Source: Oscillospiraceae bacterium
Lineage (GTDB): Bacteria; Bacillota; Clostridia; Oscillospirales; Oscillospiraceae
Assembly: GCA_022792555.1 (NCBI GenBank)
Contig: JAAWBF010000007.1
Location: 1 to 53,304 of the forward strand
Length of the DNA: 53,304 bases
Direction of reading: 5' to 3'
A model generated the notes under the pieces. The model saw nothing but the letters and a program-made list of their open reading frames with translations. It made no database searches and was not told where the DNA came from. Positions 20,877-33,913 of this stretch are shown one piece after another; position 1 is the first letter of the stretch; every line of letters begins with the position of its first letter. The translations under genes were made by a program, and so were the position numbers.

Positions 20877-23192
20877 TTACTGCCCCATAGCCCGGTACAG
20901 AAAAGTGACAATCTGCCCACGGGTGCAGGTAGCGGCAGGGGAAAAGTTACCGCCGCCGGTACCGCTGGTGATCTTCTGCTCCACTGCCCAAGCCACGGCT
21001 TGTGCATAGTCAGCATTGACAGAAACATCGGTGAAGTTGGACTTACCAGCGGGCACGGGACTTCCCGCTGCTTTCCACATGTATTCCACGGTCATGGCGC
21101 GGGTACAGTCGGTGTTTGCACCGAAGGTGGAGCCAGATACAAGGCCCCTCTCTGCGGCCCATAGCGCCGCTTTGTAGTAAAAGTCGGTGGTCTTGATATC
21201 GGTAAAAGTGTTCTCATTGGTCGGTTCCGGAGAGCCGTTAGCACGCCACAGGAAAGTCAAAATCTGCGCGTTAGTGCAAGTTGCATTAGGGGAGAACATG
21301 GTCTTGCTGGTGCCGACGGTGATATTCTTCTCCACGGCCCATTTGATCGGCTTTGCATAATAGGCATCAGCGGGCACATCGTCAAAACTGACTGTCGTTT
21401 CTGCTGGAAGTTCTGTCCCGCCCTGGTTGGTCTTGCCGTTGTCCTGACCGGGTTCAGGCATTTCCTGTGCTGTACTCATAAAAGTACCCCCTGCCCGGTG
21501 AGTTTGGGAAAGGAAATAAACCGAGGCATCGAAATAGCGGGCATCATAAATGCCGCCATTACCCGGACGGCTCCAAGTGGGATCCAGGAGGATCCATCTT
21601 CCGTCTACATAAGCGGCATTCCATGCGTGGCGGTCGTTGGAGGCCCATCCATGCACGCAGACGGCGGGAATACCAGCGGCCTGGAGCAAGGCTCTGGTCA
21701 GGTTGGCAAAGCCGCCGCATACCGCCTTCCCGCTAACCAATACTTCGTCCGCTGCTGTAGTGGTTGTGGTGGAATTGCCCCGGAAATAGGCGTAGTCATA
21801 GGCGATATTCTTGGCGACCCACTGGTTGATGGCGCTGGCCTTGTCATAATCACGGCTCAGCCCTGCGGTGATCTCCTCTGCCTTGGCGGTAATGGCATCG
21901 CTCCGGGCAGTGAGATAACTCCTTGGATCGCCCAAGCCGTCAATAGACGATTGATTGGACGCTACCGCTGCCGCATAATCAGTGCTGGGGATATTCTTGA
22001 TCTCTTGCAGGCTGGGCACACTCCCAATATAGCTCCCAAATTGGTGGGCATTCAGTCCCTTTAGTTCCTCCACCGCTCTGCCCTTGCTTGGGAACGTGAT
22101 ACTCGTGAGGGATTCACAGCCATCGACCAAGCCCCCACCAAGATAATCCATTCCATCCGGGAGAGTAAGGGACAGGATGTTGGTAGCACGGAATGCGGCT
22201 CCGCCTAATGACTTTAAGCCCGCAGGCAGATAAATCGTGCCGGTCAAGCTGGAGTATTCAAAGGCACGTTCACCGATCTCAACAATAGACGAAGGGAAAT
22301 TGATGTTCTTGAGCAAGACACAGTTCCCGAAAGCCTGTGGGCCAAGATATTCCAGACCTGCGGGCAGGATAATTTGACTGAGGGAGGAACAGCGCTGGAA
22401 CGCCTGCTCTTCTATGCGGGTAACCCCTGCGGGCAGGGTGATCTGCGTGATAAAACGCTGTTCCTCAAATGCATGCCTGCCAATAACAGTAACCCCGGCA
22501 GGAACCGTAACAGCGGTGGAAGAACCAGTATATTCCACCAAGACCCCATTCTCAATGACAAAGTCAGAGGACATAGAGCCAGGGTTTTCACTGGAACCAG
22601 TGTCGGGTGTAGTCATTCCCCCTGCGGTACTGGCATAGTGGAAAGGCGTGTTAAAAAAGTAGTTCTCAATTTCCGCCGTCGAAAGGGTATGCCCGTTCCA
22701 AGATACTTGAGAAAGTTTTTGACCGTATCCAAAGGCCCCGTCGCCAAGGCTGTTCAGGCTTGAGGGCAGGGTGACATGGGAAAGGTAGCTGCCCTCAAAA
22801 GCAGTTTCTCCGATGCTCACCAGTCCTTCAGGAAAATTGATCTGTGTGACATGGGCCTCTTCAAAAGCCCGATCACCAATCACTTGCAGGGTGGAGGGCA
22901 GCGTGACCTTTACCGAGGAAACCAAATCTCCCAGAAAGTAGAACGCCTCGTCATCAATCTTCACACAACCTTCTGGAATAACCACAGACGATACAAAAGA
23001 GCGATTGACCGCAAAGGCGCCTGTGGCGATTTCAGTTACGCCGTCTGGAATCCTTACGTCCCCTCCGCTGCCGTTGTATTTCACTAAAACCCCATTCTCA
23101 ATGACAAACTCACTGTCAGCGGCAAGGGCCGGGGCGCATAGGCCCAAGCACAGGGCCAGAGCCAGCAACAGGGATGTAATTTTCCTCTTCAT
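20877..23192 (-). CDS. Secreted surface protein: BspA-type LRR, transglutaminase-like domain, three SLH domains
   Basis: 771-aa exported protein. Order: signal peptide (about 1-24, ending ALA), two leucine-rich (BspA/LRR_5) blocks that each open with FVIENGVLV (about 28-180 and 210-370), a transglutaminase/protease-like domain (about 450-570), a linker, and three S-layer homology domains (about 604-660, 661-717, 718-771). The transglutaminase triad appears intact: Cys in KAVCGGF, His in DRHAW and Asp in LLDPTW. SLH domains should bind secondary cell-wall polymers and hold it on the surface, so it could crosslink or cleave surface proteins or bind host or neighbour proteins. The start is the ATG at the signal peptide; in-frame codons continue upstream without a ribosome site. 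Confidence 0.9.
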   Translation of the reverse strand: MKRKITSLLLALALCLGLCAPALAADSEFVIENGVLVKYNGSGGDVRIPDGVTEIATGAFAVNRSFVSSVVIPEGCVKIDDEAFYFLGDLVSSVKVTLPSTLQVIGDRAFEEAHVTQINFPEGLVSIGETAFEGSYLSHVTLPSSLNSLGDGAFGYGQKLSQVSWNGHTLSTAEIENYFFNTPFHYASTAGGMTTPDTGSSENPGSMSSDFVIENGVLVEYTGSSTAVTVPAGVTVIGRHAFEEQRFITQITLPAGVTRIEEQAFQRCSSLSQIILPAGLEYLGPQAFGNCVLLKNINFPSSIVEIGERAFEYSSLTGTIYLPAGLKSLGGAAFRATNILSLTLPDGMDYLGGGLVDGCESLTSITFPSKGRAVEELKGLNAHQFGSYIGSVPSLQEIKNIPSTDYAAAVASNQSSIDGLGDPRSYLTARSDAITAKAEEITAGLSRDYDKASAINQWVAKNIAYDYAYFRGNSTTTTTAADEVLVSGKAVCGGFANLTRALLQAAGIPAVCVHGWASNDRHAWNAAYVDGRWILLDPTWSRPGNGGIYDARYFDASVYFLSQTHRAGGTFMSTAQEMPEPGQDNGKTNQGGTELPAETTVSFDDVPADAYYAKPIKWAVEKNITVGTSKTMFSPNATCTNAQILTFLWRANGSPEPTNENTFTDIKTTDFYYKAALWAAERGLVSGSTFGANTDCTRAMTVEYMWKAAGSPVPAGKSNFTDVSVNADYAQAVAWAVEQKITSGTGGGNFSPAATCTRGQIVTFLYRAMGQ

Positions 23193-23604
23193 ATGTTTCC
23201 TTCCTCTCAATTTTAATTTCCAACAAAAGTCCCGAAGGGCAGGGGACGTGCCCCCGTCCGGGGCTTTTGCTGGAAACACAATAGGCGGGACCGAGTTTTT
23301 ATCCTCAGCCCCGCCCTGATAAATCACGCAACGCACACTATCTCCCCAATCCAGCCTTGAAAATCCGCACCGGTTTGAACATAATAGTCCCGTGGTGTAG
23401 TCAAGACTACTGTGCTGAGTACTCACTCGTACAGGGCCGCAAGGTGTTTACACCACCTTGCGGCCTGCCGCTGTTGTGTCTCTAAGGATGATTTTAACCG
23501 ATAGCGGCAAAAATTGCAAGGCATTTTCCCCGAAATTTGGAGAAAACAGATATTCCCGCCTTTTTGCTGTCGTGTCCCAGACTTGTTGATTTTATATTAT
23601 ATGC
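23193..23604. other. Non-coding leader/intergenic stretch with several hairpins
   Basis: 412 bp between the surface protein and the DUF4303-like gene. GGCCGCAAGGTG/CACCTTGCGGCC forms a 12-bp hairpin near 23434-23465, a probable end of the upstream DUF4303-like transcript, though without a T-run. Closer to the surface-protein gene lie GCCCCGGACGGGGGC-type and GTCCC...GGGAC stems (about 23236-23270). I cannot assign a riboswitch class and see no convincing promoter. Confidence 0.4.
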
Positions 23605-25627: not shown

Positions 25628-25656
25628 TTTACAAACGAACCGGTACCTGATAAAAT
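25628..25656 (+). promoter_or_regulatory. Promoter of the tyrosine recombinase gene
   Basis: TTTACA (25628-25633), a 17-bp spacer, and TAAAAT (25651-25656), followed by GGAGG and a GTG start at 25690. The -10 box is overlapped by the left arm of an 8-bp inverted repeat. Confidence 0.65.
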
Positions 25657-25674
25657 AAGGGTACTATTTATCAG
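25647..25674. repeat. Inverted repeat overlapping the -10 box
   Basis: CTGATAAA (25647-25654) and TTTATCAG (25667-25674) are perfect inverted arms 12 bp apart, covering the -10 and transcription start of the recombinase promoter. This is a good candidate for an operator or for the recombinase's own binding core. Confidence 0.5.
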
Positions 25675-25689
25675 ATAGGAGGTAGCGTT

Positions 25690-26535
25690 GTGAAAGAGAA
25701 TAGAGTAATGTCAGGCCAAACCGATGCTTTCGTTCAGCATCTACAGGACGAGGAACGAGAACCGGGGACAATTGAGAAGTACCTGCGGGATATTCAGGCC
25801 TTTATGGATTGGGTTGGACACAGAGCGATCAATAAAGAGCTGACATCAGGGTGGAAAGAGCACCTGAAAGCGCAGAACTTCCAGCCAGAAACCATTAACG
25901 CCAAGCTATCGGCCTTGAACAAATTCTTTGCTTTCCTGGGGTGGAACGACTGCCGTGTAAAGTACCTAAAAATTCAGCGTAGGCTGTTTCGGTGCGTAGA
26001 CAAGAATCTGACAAAAGTGGAGTACCTGCGCTTAGTGGATACCGCCCTCGGTCTCCAAAAGGCACGCCTTGCGCTTCTTATAGAGACCATCTGCGCCACT
26101 GGGGTTCGTGTGTCGGAGGTGAAGTACATCACGGTGGAAGCTGTCCAGGCCGGCTATGCGGAGATTGCATTAAAGGGTAAGATCCGTACGATCCTGCTGC
26201 CTGGCAAGCTGTGCCGGAAGCTGCAAAAATACTCCAAAAAGCAAAAAATCGCCTCCGGCGAACTGTTTGTCACCAGAAGCGGAAAAGGCATCACCCGTCG
26301 TCAGGTCTGGGCGGAGATGAAGTCCCTCTGTGAAAAAGCGGGCGTGGAATCCTCCAAAGTGTTTCCCCATAACCTGCGGCATCTGTTTGCCCGGACATTT
26401 TACCGGATCTATAAGGATGTGGCCCGGCTGGCGGATGTGCTGGGCCACTCCAGTATTGAAACCACTCGTCTCTATCTTATCTCCACCGGGGTGGAGCATG
26501 CCCGGAAGCTGGAACAGCTGGGGCTTATTTCTTAA
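25690..26535 (+). CDS. Tyrosine recombinase (integrase), complete
   Basis: 281-aa XerC/D-like tyrosine recombinase with an N-terminal SAM-like core-binding domain (about 10-90) and a catalytic domain. The catalytic set is all present: R140 (ATGVR), a lysine near 162-164, H227 and R230 (HNLRH), H253 (LGHSS) and the nucleophile Y262. The start is GTG, with GGAGG upstream. It precedes a polysaccharide locus rather than a prophage or element, so it may invert or exchange a segment there (inference). It is followed by tandem terminators that should confine most of its transcript. Confidence 0.88.
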   Translation: MKENRVMSGQTDAFVQHLQDEEREPGTIEKYLRDIQAFMDWVGHRAINKELTSGWKEHLKAQNFQPETINAKLSALNKFFAFLGWNDCRVKYLKIQRRLFRCVDKNLTKVEYLRLVDTALGLQKARLALLIETICATGVRVSEVKYITVEAVQAGYAEIALKGKIRTILLPGKLCRKLQKYSKKQKIASGELFVTRSGKGITRRQVWAEMKSLCEKAGVESSKVFPHNLRHLFARTFYRIYKDVARLADVLGHSSIETTRLYLISTGVEHARKLEQLGLIS

Positions 26536-26550
26536 TAGAAAAATAAGACA

Positions 26551-26625
26551 GAATGCATAATCTGTATTAATGATAGGACAAAACAAAAAGTCTTTTACTC
26601 TAATTCCGTCCAGATTATTTGCATC
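26551..26625. repeat. Imperfect inverted repeat between the two recombinase genes
   Basis: GATGCAAATAATCTG on the minus strand (right arm 26611-26625) matches GAATGCATAATCTG (26551-26564) except for a small insertion; the arms are 46 bp apart. It may be a recombination site pair or a large transcript stem after the first recombinase gene. No further copy was noticed in the locus. Confidence 0.35.
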
Positions 26626-26681
26626 ATACCACAAACAAAACGGGATTGCAAGCAAAAGGCCTATTTTTTGCGCGACAAATA

Positions 26682-26722
26682 ACAGCTAGAGAGGAAATGT
26701 TTCCTGTCTGGCTGTCTTTTTT
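26682..26722 (+). terminator. Intrinsic terminator 1 of the polysaccharide leader
   Basis: The arms 26682-26697 and 26700-26715 pair at 15 of 16 positions and are followed by C and six T (26717-26722). It faces transcription from the recombinase gene toward the rfb operon. Confidence 0.85.
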
Positions 26723-26724
26723 GC

Positions 26725-26763
26725 CGCAAAAGTGTCCCCGCCACTTTTGCGCAGTCCTTTTTT
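26725..26763 (+). terminator. Intrinsic terminator 2 of the polysaccharide leader
   Basis: CGCAAAAGTG (26725-26734) and CACTTTTGCG (26742-26751) form a 10-bp stem around TCCCCGC, with six T at 26758-26763. The T-run is 7 nt from the stem, so it is weaker than the first. No convincing promoter was found between it and the next gene, so downstream expression may rely on read-through. Confidence 0.6.
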
Positions 26764-26831
26764 ATAGTGCATGACGCCTGGTTTCAGGGCTGTTTATGCA
26801 TTCTGAGATGAATCCAGGGGGGTGAGGAGCT

Positions 26832-27686
26832 GTGCCTCAAACCAGGCAGCATATCTACGCAGAACGCCCGCGGAGCCGGTATCGCCCGGCAGAGGGAGTG
26901 GTTGTAACCCAGGAGGAGATACAGCAGTTTCTTGCCAACTACGAGAGTCTGAATCGTTCAAAGGATACCGTCCAATTCTATCGAAGAAAATTGAAGCGAT
27001 TTTATCAGGACCTGCCAGAGGATAAGACTATCCGGCGCGGCACCCTGAAGAGGTGGCAGGAGTCGCTGCTTGAAAGCGGATATACGCCTGGGTCAGTGAA
27101 TGCGTTTCTCTCTGCGGCAAACTCGTATCTGGATTACATTGGCCACCGAGAGTACCAGCTGGCAGGACAGCTCAAGGAGGAGAAAAACCCGCAGCCGGAG
27201 CTGGTGCGAGCGGAATATCTGCACCTCCTTCAGACAGCCAAGGCGTTGGGGAAGGAGAAGGTGTACCTGCTGATTAAGGTGTTTGCATCCACAGGCCTTT
27301 TTGCGCAGGAACTGCCAGAGGTAACGGTGGAGGCGGTTCAGGCGGGAAAGATTGTCTGCGACCAGAATAAGCAGAAGCAGACTGTAACCGTCCCAGCCTG
27401 TCTCAAGAAGGAGCTTTTACGTTTTGCGCAGAAAAACGGCATCTGGTCCGGCCCAATCTTCCAGACCAGAGATGGCCGGCCCATGCATCGGACCTATGTG
27501 ACCGCAGCCATCCGAAATCTCTGTGAGGAGGCAAAGATTTCGGGAGAAAAAGGGAATCCGAAGTGTCTGCGCAAGCTATATTTATCTACCCGCTCTGGAA
27601 TTGAAAACAACATCGCCCTGCTGGTAGAACAGGCTATGGAGCGGATGATGGAGCAGGAGCAGTTTTCCATCGGCTGGGACGAGTAG
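26832..27686 (+). CDS. Catalytically degenerate tyrosine recombinase homologue
   Basis: 284-aa protein clearly related to the recombinase at 25690 (same SAM-like N-domain, and the shared phrase VTVEAVQAG in the catalytic domain). The active site is gone: the first Arg is Phe (STGLFAQE), HNLRH has become KCLRK with only the central Arg kept, and the LGHSS histidine and C-terminal tyrosine segment are absent. The frame is intact and lies 18 nt before rfbA, so it is the first gene of the polysaccharide operon. A DNA-binding or regulatory role, or modulation of the active recombinase, is inferred. The GTG start at 26832 has GGGGGG 9 nt upstream. Confidence 0.75.
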   Translation: MPQTRQHIYAERPRSRYRPAEGVVVTQEEIQQFLANYESLNRSKDTVQFYRRKLKRFYQDLPEDKTIRRGTLKRWQESLLESGYTPGSVNAFLSAANSYLDYIGHREYQLAGQLKEEKNPQPELVRAEYLHLLQTAKALGKEKVYLLIKVFASTGLFAQELPEVTVEAVQAGKIVCDQNKQKQTVTVPACLKKELLRFAQKNGIWSGPIFQTRDGRPMHRTYVTAAIRNLCEEAKISGEKGNPKCLRKLYLSTRSGIENNIALLVEQAMERMMEQEQFSIGWDE

Positions 27687-27704: not shown

Positions 27705-28583
27705 ATGAAGGGAATTATTCTGGCGGGCGGTAGCGGAACACGCCTGTACCCGCTGACTATGGTGACCAGCAAGCAGCTGCTACCTATTTACGATAAACCG
27801 ATGATCTATTACCCGCTGTCCACCCTGATGCTGGCGGGGATTCGGGAGATTCTGATTATCTCCACCCCCCAGGATTTGCCCAACTTTGAGCGTCTGCTGG
27901 GGGATGGGAGACAGTTTGGGATTCAGCTGTCTTATAAGGTACAGCCCTCTCCGAACGGGCTGGCCCAGGCCTTTCTCCTGGGCGAGGAATTCATCGGAGA
28001 GGACCGGTGCGCCATGATCTTAGGGGACAATGTGTTTTACGGCGCGGGCCTGACCGCACACCTGAAGTATGCGGCACAGCAGGAGGAGGGCGCCACGGTA
28101 TTTGGGTACTATGTGGAGGACCCGGAGCGGTTCGGCGTGGTGGAGCTGGACGGAGAAGGGAGAGCGGTCTCCCTGGAGGAGAAGCCGGCCCAGCCAAAGT
28201 CCAACTACGCGGTGACGGGGCTATACTTCTATGATAAGAAGGTTTGCCAGCGGGCAAAGGACCTGAAGCCGTCTCCACGCGGGGAGCTGGAGATTACAGA
28301 TCTGAACCGTATGTACTTAGAGGAGGGTTCCTTGAAGGTGATTACCCTTGGCCGGGGCTACGCCTGGCTGGACACAGGAACAGTGGAGTCGCTGTCCGAG
28401 GCATCTGAGTTTGTGCGGGTAATTGAGAGCCGAGAGGGCATCCAAATCTCAGCGCCAGAGGAGATCGCTTACCGGAACGGGTGGATCAGCGGGGAGCGGC
28501 TGGAGAAATCCGCCGCAGTTTATAGCAATTCGCCCTACGGCATACATTTGCGCAATGTAGCCAGCGGGAAGTACATGTACTGA
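27705..28583 (+). CDS. rfbA: Glucose-1-phosphate thymidylyltransferase
   Basis: 292-aa nucleotidyltransferase making dTDP-glucose from dTTP and glucose-1-phosphate. The N-terminal signature [11 protein letters not shown] and the RfbA-type sequences [23 protein letters not shown] and [20 protein letters not shown] are all present and the length is typical. It is followed by rfbC and rfbB in a tight operon. GGAGAGAG precedes the ATG. Confidence 0.96.
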
Positions 28584-28596
28584 GGGTGATGAAGCA

Positions 28597-29151
28597 ATGG
28601 AGTTTACAGAGACGATGTTGAAGGGCGTATATATTGTGGAGTCCCAGGTATTTGGCGATCATCGGGGCTTTTTTATGGAGAGCTGGTCCCGGCGGGACTT
28701 TGAGACGGCGGGACTGTACTATGAATTTGTGCAGGACAACCACTCCTCGTCCGCCGTGAAGGGGACGCTGCGGGGCATCCATTTCCAGCGGGGGGAGAAA
28801 GCCCAGGCCAAGCTGGTGCGATGTGTAAAAGGTGCTGTGCTGGATGTGGCGGTGGACCTGCGGCCCAGCAGTCCAACTTACAAAAAATGGGTAGGTGTGG
28901 AGCTGTCGGGAGAGAATAAGCGGCAGCTCCTGATCCCACGGGGCTTCGGCCATGGATTTCTGACGCTGACAGACGATGTGGAATTTCTATACAAGGCGGA
29001 TAATCCCTATGCACCGGAGGCAGACGGCGGGATCCGCTGGAATGACCCAGAGCTTGGGGTGGACTGGGGAATTGACGATCCCATTTTATCCGATAAGGAC
29101 AGCAAGCTGCCCTATTTCAAAGAGGCCGTCACCGGCTTTGAGGAGTGGTGA
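28597..29151 (+). CDS. rfbC: dTDP-4-dehydrorhamnose 3,5-epimerase
   Basis: 184-aa cupin-fold epimerase acting on dTDP-4-keto-6-deoxyglucose. The family motifs VKGTLRGIHFQ (catalytic His), RCVKGAVLDVAVDLR and PRGFGHGFLTL are present. It lies 13 nt after rfbA and is followed at 2 nt by rfbB. Confidence 0.96.
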   Translation: MEFTETMLKGVYIVESQVFGDHRGFFMESWSRRDFETAGLYYEFVQDNHSSSAVKGTLRGIHFQRGEKAQAKLVRCVKGAVLDVAVDLRPSSPTYKKWVGVELSGENKRQLLIPRGFGHGFLTLTDDVEFLYKADNPYAPEADGGIRWNDPELGVDWGIDDPILSDKDSKLPYFKEAVTGFEEW

Positions 29152-29153
29152 GG

Positions 29154-30173
29154 ATGAAGATCTTAGTTACTGGTGGGGCCGGATTTATTGGGAGCAACTT
29201 TATCTTTTACATAGAAAAAAAGCACCCGGAGTATGAGCTGGTTTGCCTGGATAAGCTGACCTACGCAGGAAATCTGGCGACGTTGGCCCCCATGATGGAT
29301 CGGCTAAACTTTAAGTTCATCCGGGGAGATATTGCGGATCAGGAGGCAGTGTTCGACATCTTTGAGACGGAAAAACCGGATGTAGTGGTAAACTTCGCAG
29401 CAGAGAGCCATGTGGATCGGTCTATTGAGGCTCCAGGCATTTTTTTACAGACCAATGTGATAGGGACCCAGGTATTGCTGGACGCCTGCCGAAGCTATGG
29501 AATCCAGCGGTATCACCAAGTATCCACAGACGAGGTATACGGGGACCTGCCCCTAGACCGGCCAGATCTGTTTTTCACCGAGCAGACCCCCCTGCACACA
29601 TCCTCGCCCTATTCCGCCTCCAAGGCGTCTGCGGATCTGTTGTGCAATGCCTATCAGCGGACTTACGGTCTGCCTATCACGATCTCCAGGTGCTCCAACA
29701 ACTATGGGCCATACCAATTCCCGGAGAAGCTGATCCCGTTGATGATCGCCAACGCTCTGGCGGACAAGCCCCTTCCAGTGTACGGCGAGGGGCTGAACGT
29801 GCGGGACTGGCTGTATGTGGAGGATCACTGTGCGGCGATTGACCTGATCTTAGAGAGCGGTCAAGCGGGGCAGGTGTACAACATCGGCGGACACAATGAG
29901 ATGAAGAACATCGACATTGTGAAGCTGATCTGCAAAGCGCTGGATAAGCCGGAGCGTCTGATCACCTATGTCACAGACCGAAAGGGACACGATATGCGCT
30001 ACGCCATCGACCCGACCTTTATCCATGAAAAGCTGGGCTGGCTGCCGGAGACGAAGTTCGAGGCGGGCATTCAGCGGACCATCCAGTGGTATCTGGACAA
30101 CCAGGACTGGTGGACAGAGATTGTAAACGGGGAGTATCAAAGCTACTATGAGCGGATGTACGGGAACAGGTAA
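29154..30173 (+). CDS. rfbB: dTDP-glucose 4,6-dehydratase
   Basis: 339-aa extended SDR that dehydrates dTDP-glucose to dTDP-4-keto-6-deoxyglucose. The NAD-binding GGAGFIGSN is at the start, the catalytic region has STDEVYGD and the YSASKAS motif supplies Tyr and Lys; length is typical. ATG 29154 has AGGAG 8 nt upstream. No rfbD follows, so L-rhamnose synthesis is not completed in this window. Its last 26 nt overlap the next gene, at the point where base composition changes sharply. Confidence 0.95.
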   Translation: MKILVTGGAGFIGSNFIFYIEKKHPEYELVCLDKLTYAGNLATLAPMMDRLNFKFIRGDIADQEAVFDIFETEKPDVVVNFAAESHVDRSIEAPGIFLQTNVIGTQVLLDACRSYGIQRYHQVSTDEVYGDLPLDRPDLFFTEQTPLHTSSPYSASKASADLLCNAYQRTYGLPITISRCSNNYGPYQFPEKLIPLMIANALADKPLPVYGEGLNVRDWLYVEDHCAAIDLILESGQAGQVYNIGGHNEMKNIDIVKLICKALDKPERLITYVTDRKGHDMRYAIDPTFIHEKLGWLPETKFEAGIQRTIQWYLDNQDWWTEIVNGEYQSYYERMYGNR

Positions 30174-31086
30174 AAGAATACAGATTTTACTCTCGACCTA
30201 TAATGGCGAAACATATCTTAAGGAACAGTTGGATAGTTTTTTGTCCCTAGAAAATTTCAGTGTATGCAATGTATTGATTCGAGACGATGGCTCAACCGAT
30301 AGGACAAGATCAATTCTTCGCGAATATGAGAAGCGGAAAGATTTTAAAATTTATTATGGAGAAAATATAGGAATCACAAAGAGCTATTATTGGCTGCTGC
30401 AAAATAGCGATCAATTATGTGAGTATTTTGCTTTTAGCGATCAGGATGATGTATGGCTGCCAAATAAATTGAAGCTTGCAATAGATGCCTTAGATGAATG
30501 CCCACCAAATATACCAGTGCTTTTTGCATCTGCAACTCAAATTGTAGATGCAGAGTTACGTTGTTTAAATAGTCGCGGTGTGGTCAAAAATTGTAGAATT
30601 TCTTATTACAATGCCATGGTTCAAAATGTGCTTCCCGGACATACACAGGTGATGAATCGAAAGCTGCGTGAGGTCATTTTACAGCAGGGCTATGACGACA
30701 TTCATGTGATTGATTGGTGGTATTATTTAGTTGCGTCTGGAATTGGAGTTGTCAAATATTGTTCAGAGTGTACTGTTTTGCATCGTCAGCATGACGGCAA
30801 CGCGGTCGGCATGCAGAAGGGACTATTTTTAAATATTTTTAGACGGATTCAGTACATTAAAGAAGGACGCGGAAATGCGTTCTCCAAACAACTATATGCT
30901 TTTTATATGAGGTATAAGTCGATGCTTCCAGAAGAATACAGTCTAGAAACAGAGGCCTTTTTGGGCCACCTGCCGTCTGTACGGCTAAGACTTAGATATA
31001 TTGTAACCGGCAAGGTATATCGACAAGGATTGATGGAAACATGGATATTTAAGCTCTTATATGTTTTGGGGAAATATAAGCTTTAA
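30148..31086 (+). CDS. Glycosyltransferase family 2, rhamnosyltransferase-like
   Basis: 312-aa GT-A fold glycosyltransferase. It has the N-terminal ILLSTYNGETYLKEQLDS, the DDGSTDRT nucleotide-sugar motif and the FSDQDDVW catalytic/DxD region typical of the rhamnosyltransferase-like subgroup that follows rfb genes. No membrane segments are evident. The ATG at 30148 lies inside rfbB and gives about 8 extra N-terminal residues, as might arise from cassette joining. Codon use is clearly more AT-rich than in rfbACB. Sugar and acceptor are unknown. Confidence 0.85.
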   Translation: MSGCTGTGKRIQILLSTYNGETYLKEQLDSFLSLENFSVCNVLIRDDGSTDRTRSILREYEKRKDFKIYYGENIGITKSYYWLLQNSDQLCEYFAFSDQDDVWLPNKLKLAIDALDECPPNIPVLFASATQIVDAELRCLNSRGVVKNCRISYYNAMVQNVLPGHTQVMNRKLREVILQQGYDDIHVIDWWYYLVASGIGVVKYCSECTVLHRQHDGNAVGMQKGLFLNIFRRIQYIKEGRGNAFSKQLYAFYMRYKSMLPEEYSLETEAFLGHLPSVRLRLRYIVTGKVYRQGLMETWIFKLLYVLGKYKL

Positions 31087-31170: not shown

Positions 31171-33153
31171 ATGCCAGTACATATTTTAGTTGAATGCCCA
31201 GAACTGATTGTTTCGGCAAAAATAGGCGTTTTAGGACCATTGGCCTTACTAGAACAAACGGGGAAATGTGATGTTCTTTTTGTAGAAACAAAGAATATGA
31301 AAAGAAAACATATTGTATGGGCAGACATACTGGTCTGTGTACGCGGCTGTGAGCATTTGACCCGAAACATTGTGTCGGAGGCTAAGAAGGCAGGCCGACT
31401 TGTTATTTATTATCTGGATGATGATTTGCTGAATGTTCCCGAAGAGTCCACAGCATGGAGTTATTATCATGACATACAAATAAGAGAAGACTTGAAAGCC
31501 ATCTTGTCGATGAGCGATATACTGTGGGGGGTAAATGTTAATATTCGGGATAAGTATTTGCCCTATATAGATGGGAGATGGATTCAAAACAGGCTGCCAG
31601 TTATCTATAACAGTTTTTTCCCGATGTCGAGGCTAGATGATAAACCTAGACGGATTTTATACGCAGGTTCAGTAGACCACAAAGTGCTGGTGCGTGAAAT
31701 ATTGTCACCAGTTGTGAAACGTCTTGCATTGGAATACGGAGAGCAGGTTGAATTTACCTTTATTGGGGTTGACCCAGGATTAACGGAATGTGACAATGTG
31801 CGCTATATTCCATTTATAACTCCATATGAGGAATACAGGAACTTTGTAGAAAGAAACCATTTTGATATTGGACTCGCTCCAGGACGTTCAGATGATTTTT
31901 ATGCATGTAAATATTACAACAAATTTGTGGAATATTCATCTATAGGAGTGGTAGGTATTTATACCAATGCAGAGCCGTATACACAAATTGTTGTACATAA
32001 AGAAAATGGAATATTGTGTGAAAACACGCAGGAGTCATGGTACAACAGGATACGAGAATTACTAGAGAACCCCGATCTGTTAAAGACGTGCCGCACGAAT
32101 GCATTGGATCAATTAGCTGTCGAATTTGGACCGGATCAGGTTTTGAATCAGCTTGTAGCGCAATGTCCAGAATTATACACGTTCCATGCAAAGCAGATAA
32201 AGGAAAAAGAGATCCACTTAATGAACGGGTTTTGGTCGTTCTATATCGGCAGAGTATCACTCATTTGGAAGAGATATGGTATCAGAGCATTGCCGGTAAT
32301 TTTTATGAAGGCACTCAAAATTCTAATATTATTCAGTCTAAACTTTATAAAAGAAAGGTTTTGTACTGTGTTTTATAAATATTTCGATGGAATTAGAAAA
32401 AACCGCTATATCTTAACAAGTCTTATACAGCGGGATCTGCAAATGAAATACCGGCGATCTAGGTTAGGGATTGCCTGGACAATTTTGACGCCTTTAGGAT
32501 TGGCCATTATAGTAGGTTCCGTGTACTCAATTTTGTTTGGGACATCCCCCAAGGAGCTTATTCCGCTTATATTTGCCAGCATTAATCCGTGGATATTTAT
32601 GTCTGGCACGGCGGATGCGGCTACAATGGCTTTCCCAGCTGCAGAGGGATATATCAAGCAGTCAACTGTGACGTCACAGATTTTTCCTATTAGGGTAACT
32701 ATGACAAATTTTGTGACACTTTTGTACAGTGTTCTTACATTTTTCGGCGTTTATTTGTTTTTATCGCCTGAAAGATTTGGACTGCAGATGATTTTGTGTG
32801 TTCCAGGATTGATAATCATGTTTATTTTTACACTGGGGCTTGCAAACCTGACTTCTGTAGTCAATCTTTATATCAGAGATTTTGCGCCGTTCCAAAGCTT
32901 GGTCTTCCAAGGACTCTTTTACGCTACTCCAATTATTTATGACGCAAAGATGATTGCAGAAAAAGGACTTGGAATCGTGTACGAAATAAATCCTTTTTAC
33001 TATATGCTTGAGGTGGTCCGGCTGCCTATGCTGGGGAGAGAACTGCCTGGAATCATGTCATATGCAATTTCGATTGGCATTGCGCTTATAACCTTTGTCG
33101 CTGGTGTAATTGTACAGATGCGGGCGGCAAAAGAAATTTCCTACCTGTTATGA
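31171..33153 (+). CDS. Glycosyltransferase fused to an ABC-2 polysaccharide export permease
   Basis: 660-aa fusion. Residues about 1-340 form a GT-B-like glycosyltransferase (ILYAGSVDHK, FIGVDPG, the FDIGLAPGRSDDFYACKYYNKFVEY donor-site region, and IVVHKENGILC). Residues about 405-660 form an ABC-2 permease of the Wzm/TagG type, starting with the amphipathic LIQRDLQMKYRRSRLGIAW and carrying six hydrophobic segments. The permease should move the lipid-linked glycan across the membrane with the ATPase encoded next. The two activities are normally separate proteins, so synthesis and export may be physically coupled here. The ATG at 31171 has AAGGAG upstream. Confidence 0.85.
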   Translation: MPVHILVECPELIVSAKIGVLGPLALLEQTGKCDVLFVETKNMKRKHIVWADILVCVRGCEHLTRNIVSEAKKAGRLVIYYLDDDLLNVPEESTAWSYYHDIQIREDLKAILSMSDILWGVNVNIRDKYLPYIDGRWIQNRLPVIYNSFFPMSRLDDKPRRILYAGSVDHKVLVREILSPVVKRLALEYGEQVEFTFIGVDPGLTECDNVRYIPFITPYEEYRNFVERNHFDIGLAPGRSDDFYACKYYNKFVEYSSIGVVGIYTNAEPYTQIVVHKENGILCENTQESWYNRIRELLENPDLLKTCRTNALDQLAVEFGPDQVLNQLVAQCPELYTFHAKQIKEKEIHLMNGFWSFYIGRVSLIWKRYGIRALPVIFMKALKILILFSLNFIKERFCTVFYKYFDGIRKNRYILTSLIQRDLQMKYRRSRLGIAWTILTPLGLAIIVGSVYSILFGTSPKELIPLIFASINPWIFMSGTADAATMAFPAAEGYIKQSTVTSQIFPIRVTMTNFVTLLYSVLTFFGVYLFLSPERFGLQMILCVPGLIIMFIFTLGLANLTSVVNLYIRDFAPFQSLVFQGLFYATPIIYDAKMIAEKGLGIVYEINPFYYMLEVVRLPMLGRELPGIMSYAISIGIALITFVAGVIVQMRAAKEISYLL

Positions 33154-33175
33154 TGTTAACTGAGGGGATATGCCG

Positions 33176-33913
33176 ATGAGCCTAATTGAACTAAAGTCTG
33201 CTGACCTTGTGTTCAAGATTCAGCGTGAGCGCAGAATTAAAGATATTATTATACCTGGCAGCAATCGATTCAGTAAGTTTGAACATGGAAAAGAAGTCCA
33301 TGCGCTTAAGCATATAAATTTGACGGTGCGGGATGGAGAGCGTTTAGCAGTTATCGGCCATAATGGAGCAGGAAAAAGTACGCTTTTGCGTTTGATTTCT
33401 GGAATATATGCACCGACTGGCGGGGCACTCACAGTAGAGGGAAGAGTGTCTGGAATGTTTGAATTTGCTACTGGATTTGAAATGGAGCAAAACGGGTGGG
33501 ATAACATATATCTGCGGGGGCTGATGCTGGGAGAAAAGCCGGAAGAAATTAAGAAAAAAATGTTGGAAATTGCGGACTTTTCAGAGCTGGGAGACTTTTT
33601 GAACATGCCAGTGAAGTACTACTCTTCCGGTATGCTGATTAGACTGGCGTTTTCGGTTTCAACTGCCATCAACCCAGATATTTTGTTGCTAGATGAGGCT
33701 ATGGCCGCGGGAGATGCAGCTTTTATACAAAAGGCACAAGCGCGTATGAATCATATGATGGAAAAATCACATATTTTGATATTGGTTACGCATGGAATGC
33801 AGACGGCGGTTGATTTTTGTAACCGATGTATATGGCTGGAGCAGGGGGAAATCGTAATGGATGGCGCGCCCGACAATGTTACTACAGCATATAAGGCCAG
33901 CACCTGCGGTTGA
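33176..33913 (+). CDS. ABC transporter ATP-binding protein, Wzt/TagH-like
   Basis: 245-aa ATPase with Walker A (GHNGAGKST), the signature YYSSGMLIRLAFS and Walker B (PDILLLDE), as in polysaccharide and teichoic-acid exporters. It is of the short type without the C-terminal carbohydrate-binding domain of some Wzt proteins. The ATG at 33176 is preferred over 33170 because GAGGGG is 8 nt before it. It pairs with the fused permease encoded 22 nt upstream. Confidence 0.93.
   Translation: MSLIELKSADLVFKIQRERRIKDIIIPGSNRFSKFEHGKEVHALKHINLTVRDGERLAVIGHNGAGKSTLLRLISGIYAPTGGALTVEGRVSGMFEFATGFEMEQNGWDNIYLRGLMLGEKPEEIKKKMLEIADFSELGDFLNMPVKYYSSGMLIRLAFSVSTAINPDILLLDEAMAAGDAAFIQKAQARMNHMMEKSHILILVTHGMQTAVDFCNRCIWLEQGEIVMDGAPDNVTTAYKASTCG

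Follow-up and report, generated by a model that had tools for sequence, protein, structure and literature searches.

Invertible promoters and repressors derived from dead recombinases are both already known, each on its own. In streptococci, the XerD-like protein is a Xer homologue without catalytic residues, for which we know of no link to invertible promoters or surface operons. The best described case of the second kind is MrpR, the DNA-binding repressor of the SPbeta prophage, which has the fold of a tyrosine recombinase and has lost recombinase function, and which keeps Lys169 and Tyr304 (PMC10516654). In Bacteroides, phase-variable capsule operons, of which there are several per genome, begin with the genes for UpxY, an antiterminator, and for UpxZ, which inhibits non-adjacent capsule operons (PMC7315117). 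According to the abstracts seen, the RecV-type promoter or leader switches of Clostridioides difficile (for example cwpV and flg) consist of a short segment ahead of surface genes that is inverted by a tyrosine recombinase (PMC5386303, PMC2784873); a dead paralog as partner is not mentioned in these abstracts.

The window, that is, the whole stretch of 53,304 nucleotides that was analysed, from a gut bacterium of the Oscillospiraceae, holds a recombinase with an intact active site (A), an invertible segment and a catalytically dead paralog (D) at the head of a polysaccharide operon. The locus is laid out as follows:

25644..25677, plus strand: palindrome just 5' of the ribosome site of A; similar hairpins stand before A genes with and without D.
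25690..26535, plus strand: A, active Xer-like tyrosine recombinase of 281 aa, R-K-H-R-H-Y intact, presumed invertase of the promoter segment; in A-D pairs, A has kept its catalytic residues almost without exception.
26549..26560, plus strand: left inverted repeat CAGAATGCATAA, 13 nt past the stop of A.
26561..26793: invertible promoter segment of 233 bp, OFF here and in the opposite orientation in the homologous segment of genome G029 (locus L041).
26623..26651, minus strand: sigma-70-like promoter TTGCAA-17-TATGAT with TG, directed away from D (OFF).
26725..26751, plus strand: intrinsic-terminator-like hairpin followed by a T run, inside the segment.
26794..26805, minus strand: right inverted repeat TTATGCATTCTG, 27 nt ahead of the start of D.
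26832..27686, plus strand: D, dead tyrosine-recombinase paralog and first gene of the operon; GTG start, 284 aa, intact frame.
27705..28583, plus strand: rfbA-like glucose-1-phosphate thymidylyltransferase (NTP_transferase), from a domain scan.
28597..29151, plus strand: rfbC-like dTDP-4-dehydrorhamnose 3,5-epimerase, from a domain scan.
29145..30173, plus strand: rfbB-like dTDP-glucose 4,6-dehydratase, from a domain scan.
30148..31086, plus strand: 312-aa ORF, probable glycosyltransferase of the operon, judged from its sequence.
31171..33153, plus strand: ORF with glycosyltransferase group 1 and ABC-2 permease domains, from a domain scan.
33170..33913, plus strand: polysaccharide-export type ABC ATPase, from a domain scan.

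D begins 296 nt past the stop of A, at a GTG that is preceded by a GAGGAG ribosome site and falls in the same alignment column as the ATG starts of its relatives, and it ends 18 nt ahead of rfbA. It shares 31% identity with A, and the Pfam matches to Phage_int_SAM_1 and Phage_integrase are weak in D and strong in A. The sequence-only reading had described D as a full-length relative of an active recombinase about 300 bp upstream, and these data agree with it; the open reading frame and the neighbouring genes likewise confirm an intact frame at the head of rfbACB.

The residues R-K-H-R-H/W-Y that mark active tyrosine recombinases (PF00589) are not found together in the window D. The position of the first Arg is occupied by F157 (in the context STGLFAQEL), K244 replaces the His of HxxR (NPKCLRK), and neither the second His nor the Tyr is present in the alignment of A- and D-type proteins. 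The losses claimed earlier are all seen, but the Arg of HxxR is retained (R247). A survey of homologues for the same missing residues, as proposed in that reading, showed that all or almost all D members of this alignment have lost the first Arg, the Lys, each of the two His and the Tyr, whereas R-K-H-R-H is kept in 36 of the 36 A paralogs that cover those columns and the Tyr in 35 of them. The loss of catalytic residues in the D family is far above chance. The family has conserved motifs of its own, KGNPRCLRRLY and EQLxxGW, with D-specific invariant residues, and in the window these read NPKCLRKLY (N242-Y250) and EQFSIGW (E276-W282).

In the predicted structure of D (pLDDT 90.7), the fold of both the core-binding and the catalytic domain is preserved. 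Its C-terminus is modelled as one helix of 38 residues (243-280) where A has the tyrosine region and the last helix; the Tyr is indeed gone, but the segment that carried it appears replaced and not simply lost, as had been thought. Active integrases were the best matches in a structure comparison, with Z up to 15.4 for lambda integrase over 232 residues, supporting that D has the tyrosine-recombinase fold. The model also matches SroF (Z 11.8), MrpR (Z 11.4) and YopR (Z 10.5). Like MrpR (YopR, Bacillus SPbeta) and SroF (phi3T), D is a stand-alone protein that combines the recombinase fold with lost catalytic residues. It differs from MrpR in lacking the Lys and the Tyr that MrpR keeps, in keeping the second Arg, in its predicted single long C-terminal helix, in being linked to invertible promoters and surface operons instead of a prophage, and in matching its fold less well than that of active integrases. 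When PDB sequences were searched with a D profile at E 0.001, XerA, XerD and lambda Int were returned and MrpR was not. The streptococcal XerD-like protein would be like D in being a Xer homologue that lacks catalytic residues. The mean charge is +4 in D versus +21 in A, and this low basicity makes DNA binding by D less likely.

Among 400 genomes of the same family, a protein search detected matches in 34 genomes; those in G106, G136 and G146 proved to be A-type, which leaves D in 31. D was also found in a second (sister) family of the order (G738, G698, G651 and G668), and outside the order a sample of 371 genomes of the class yielded none at E 1e-62. At least four D genes are present in the genome of the window: that of the window itself, a paralog in C152 that is 88% identical to it, and two whose 3' ends, at the edges of C177 and C178, are identical over 141 nt and are each followed by different polysaccharide genes. 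The operons led by D can encode polysaccharide functions (rfb, ABC-2/ABC export, glycosyltransferases, Wzz) or adhesins and pili (SLH, VWA, Cna_B, SpaA and LPXTG proteins). As many of the scanned D loci are of the latter sort, a tie of D solely to polysaccharide operons is ruled out, and the description of D as the first gene of such an operon holds for rfbACB here but not for the whole family. The polysaccharide-linked D form one weakly supported clade in a quick tree.

In the same quick tree D is monophyletic, and a single split with support 100 separates it from A. D is thus of old origin and did not arise by decay of the neighbouring A; the split also rules out D as a recent duplicate of the adjacent recombinase. 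The dN/dS values of the window D against its C152, G137 and G029 counterparts are about 0.07-0.08 (0.12-0.13 for the window A against C152 and G137), indicating that D is under strong purifying selection. Together with the monophyly and the family's own motifs, these values sustain the earlier claim that selection has kept the protein and not its active site. A decaying relic of a duplicated recombinase would be expected to lose catalytic residues, and broken or missing copies in relatives had been named as the sign of simple decay. Such cases are marginal: only one clearly truncated copy was found, L084 (G399), and D is missing from two comparable loci, L099 and L109, against about 50 intact copies across the 31 genomes plus those of the sister family. 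The stop codons reported in D of G698 and G651 were located, upon realignment, outside the aligned protein, so these copies were not counted as broken. Given the low dN/dS (about 0.07), the single ancient origin, the number of intact copies and the D-specific invariant residues, a relic is scarcely credible, and simple decay is refuted by selection and conservation.

The gap between A and D is, by its sequence, an invertible promoter, a central feature that the earlier reading lacked. The window repeats are perfect over 12 nt and stand 233 bp apart around a promoter, as in invertons, and both orientations were seen, in relatives and between the window and its L041 homologue. In the OFF state, the terminator-like hairpin would block read-through from A into the operon. 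We compared 29 A-D gaps, namely 28 in relatives and the C152 paralog plus that of the window. The left arm starts near the stop of A, and the right arm is close to the start of D, except in four loci with an N-terminally extended D, where it is further upstream. The arms vary between loci and match within a locus, in such a way that the mean arm-pairing score was 14.2, versus 8.1 for arms mis-paired between genomes, and scores of at least 12 were reached by 72% of the true pairs and by 2.2% of the mis-paired ones. The promoter was directed OFF in 15 loci and ON in 10, and 4 gave no call.

That inversion occurs is directly apparent in relatives. In G369, the segments of L057 and L058 are identical at 218 of 218 positions only when one of them is reverse-complemented (62 of 218 directly), and their flanks are identical over 878 of 878 nt upstream (in A) and through D as well. 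An alignment on opposite strands was also obtained between the segment of G029 and those of the window, C152 and G137, and again for L064 versus L056, L059 and L067, and for L073 versus L075. No D-specific operator was found in the invertible segments, where the conserved elements are common to loci with and without D, and upstream of A, where the same is true of the palindromes. One such element, the palindrome-like TTTGYNNNRCAAA, lies upstream of the -35 box in several inverton promoters, with or without D (about 26665-26685 on the minus strand in the window), and is a possible site of a common regulator.

We lean towards the view that D is an MrpR-like dead-recombinase transcription regulator, made only when its phase-variable surface operon is ON. 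A would invert the 233-bp segment. When ON, the promoter would drive transcription across the right repeat into D and the polysaccharide genes; when OFF, as here, it would face A, with the terminator insulating the operon. Because the promoter reaches D only in the ON orientation, D would be made only in ON cells. There it most likely binds DNA through its kept core-binding and catalytic-like domains, and the new C-terminal helix may serve its assembly as a transcription regulator. As target we infer either the operon that D leads or a fixed group of surface genes, and the mode of action would resemble that of MrpR of phage SPbeta, in which a dead recombinase fold is used as a repressor. The precedent of MrpR and SroF (PMC10516654) makes the DNA-binding regulator suggested earlier plausible by structural analogy. 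Against a regulator speak the low charge of D, the negative search for a D-specific operator, a predicted fold that matches active integrases (Z 15.4) better than MrpR (Z 11.4), and L099 and L109, in which an A switch leads an ABC-type polysaccharide operon but D is missing, with no other visible change.

The most telling evidence on function is the persistence of D behind exchanged switches. Most D genes lie behind A and its segment of 200-280 bp, and in L077 and L130-L134 one or more genes of the ON operon precede D. In G274, by contrast with these A-linked loci, D is found behind a different integrase of 378 aa (L061 and L068), encoded within a 1.46-kb inverton with perfect 21-bp repeats TTCGCAGAGTTGGCCCATCAA (L061 6395-7899, L068 7186-8692). 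This segment has opposite orientations in the two loci of the same genome, and their D group in the quick tree with the A-linked D of L046 and L047. In L167 (G738, of the other family) and L086 (G162), a serine invertase of resolvase fold lies upstream of D, and closely similar repeats of 22-24 nt, 115-143 bp apart, stand directly before D. A serine recombinase also precedes D in L053, where flanking repeats were sought and not found. A, the second integrase and the serine invertases each recognise other sites, and the chemistry of the serine enzymes is different too, so a factor that directs one of these enzymes would hardly be kept behind the rest. With D relatives behind at least three unrelated flip switches, D probably serves in gene regulation and not in the flipping machinery, and the comparisons make a role as recombination directionality factor unlikely. 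Production only in ON cells, strong selection, a DNA-binding fold and retention after switch exchange would together fit a regulator best.

The same loci bear on the possibility that D modulates recombination, by binding the repeats or joining A in mixed complexes; made in the ON state, it would bias or block further inversion, either as a feedback lock or by blocking the switches of other loci. D adjoins A in most loci, its predicted fold is that of A, nearly all D genomes also carry A, and distances among A proteins correlate with those among D proteins when all pairs are taken (Mantel r 0.51, 0 of 2000 permutations), all of which would be expected of a modulator. However, the correlation drops to 0.16 without close pairs, and the presence of D changes about 10 times on the A tree. 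A itself was found in 98 of the 400 genomes, and about two thirds of these have no D. Switches with A only also exist in both orientations (L124 versus L127), their cargo being mostly large surface proteins, so a requirement of D for inversion is unlikely. A modulator would also have to work with the other switches, the integrase with its 21-bp repeats and the serine invertases, whose sites are unrelated. On balance we regard it as unlikely, and the directionality partner of the sequence-only reading is weakened by D genes behind unrelated switches and by A with an invertible promoter in many D-less genomes.

A regulator might instead act across loci, with D controlling other surface loci to keep the number expressed at any one time low, like UpxZ of Bacteroides. 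D stands at the head of its operon as UpxY and UpxZ do in phase-variable capsule operons (PMC7315117), and 2-5 D loci are found in several genomes, at least four in the present one. The protein families are, however, unrelated, since D derives from a recombinase and also leads adhesin and pilus operons, and Pfam, NCBIfam and PHROGs gave significant matches only to integrase/recombinase families, with no NusG-like UpxY or UpxZ sequence in D. Moreover, 21 of the 31 D genomes show a single D (in draft genomes, in which copies may be missed), which is more in keeping with action on the operon that D leads or on a fixed regulon than with mutual exclusion of D loci. G388 and G215 each have two ON D loci in one assembly, and strict mutual exclusion is unsupported by the ON/OFF calls of the assemblies, although an assembly averages a population. 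Cross-regulation of this type seems to us quite improbable.

LoaP is likewise encoded first in long operons, a position that would suit an action of D on RNA or transcription elongation, for instance as antiterminator of a long operon. To our knowledge no antiterminator has a recombinase fold. UpxY gives the same positional precedent (PMC7315117), and the basic charge of D is low for a DNA binder. Three G274 loci have, ahead of the operon, a double hairpin with compensatory changes, which would also fit, but it is limited to that genome among the loci searched, and one of the three has no D (L109). We consider such a role very improbable. This strong hairpin pair (GGGGGAGGC..GCCTCCCCC / CGTGGRGGTACCYCCACG) precedes three surface-polysaccharide operons, at L061 6151-6172, L068 6943-6964 and L109 5373-5394; Rfam gave no match for this pair and none in the four loci scanned.

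A dead recombinase that opens invertible surface operons and is shared across switch types was not found described in the open-access literature searched, nor was the D family itself, in agreement with the earlier remark that such a regulator or directionality partner is undescribed. The locus differs from the RecV-type switches in that each switch has its own adjacent recombinase, often with a dead paralog as the first gene of the operon. More tentatively, and with rather less conviction than for the regulator itself, we propose that D founds a chromosomal family of dead-recombinase regulators, portable between switches, which, placed first in polysaccharide and adhesin operons, would report the ON state and feed it into the transcription of their own or other surface loci. 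Phase variation that works by inverting promoters is usually regarded as stochastic, and the control of surface polysaccharides in gut Firmicutes is poorly known. If the proposal is true, a recombinase-derived D, made only in the ON state and kept through recombinase exchange, would be a dedicated link from flip state to regulation in gut Firmicutes, and dead-recombinase regulators, known from Bacillus phages, would have arisen in bacterial chromosomes too. The system could be tested with one purified protein and a short reporter.

Some loci carry further degenerate recombinases. The D genes of G215 and G293 (L056, L059, L062, L064 and L067) have an N-terminal extension, which in L056 (6060-7673, minus strand) is a second degenerate catalytic domain by Pfam, and the extended D of these loci is followed by a degenerate recombinase gene of 187-189 aa (L056 5494-6063, minus strand). 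In L071 (2748-4037, minus strand) and L175, a protein of 429 aa is encoded directly upstream of D, with one Phage_integrase match and one weak regulator C-terminal match in Pfam; judged from its sequence, it appears to combine two degenerate recombinase catalytic domains with winged-helix-like domains after them, and is possibly another dead-recombinase regulator.

Palindromes scoring at least 10 were found upstream of about 30% of the A genes, versus 0.3% in shuffles. Hairpins directly before the start of A, seen in the window, L047, L063, L066, L091, L095 and L104, often pair CCTCC with the Shine-Dalgarno GGAGG and could shield the recombinase from read-through translation. A third switch of the same genome, in C24 (L094 1600-1900), has an active recombinase, 23-nt repeats and an OFF promoter ahead of genes without assigned function, and no D. 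Upstream of the locus, the window holds an ORF of 849 aa (20877-23426, minus strand) that, judged from its sequence, resembles a secreted protein with leucine-rich repeats and a transglutaminase-like and SLH-like region.
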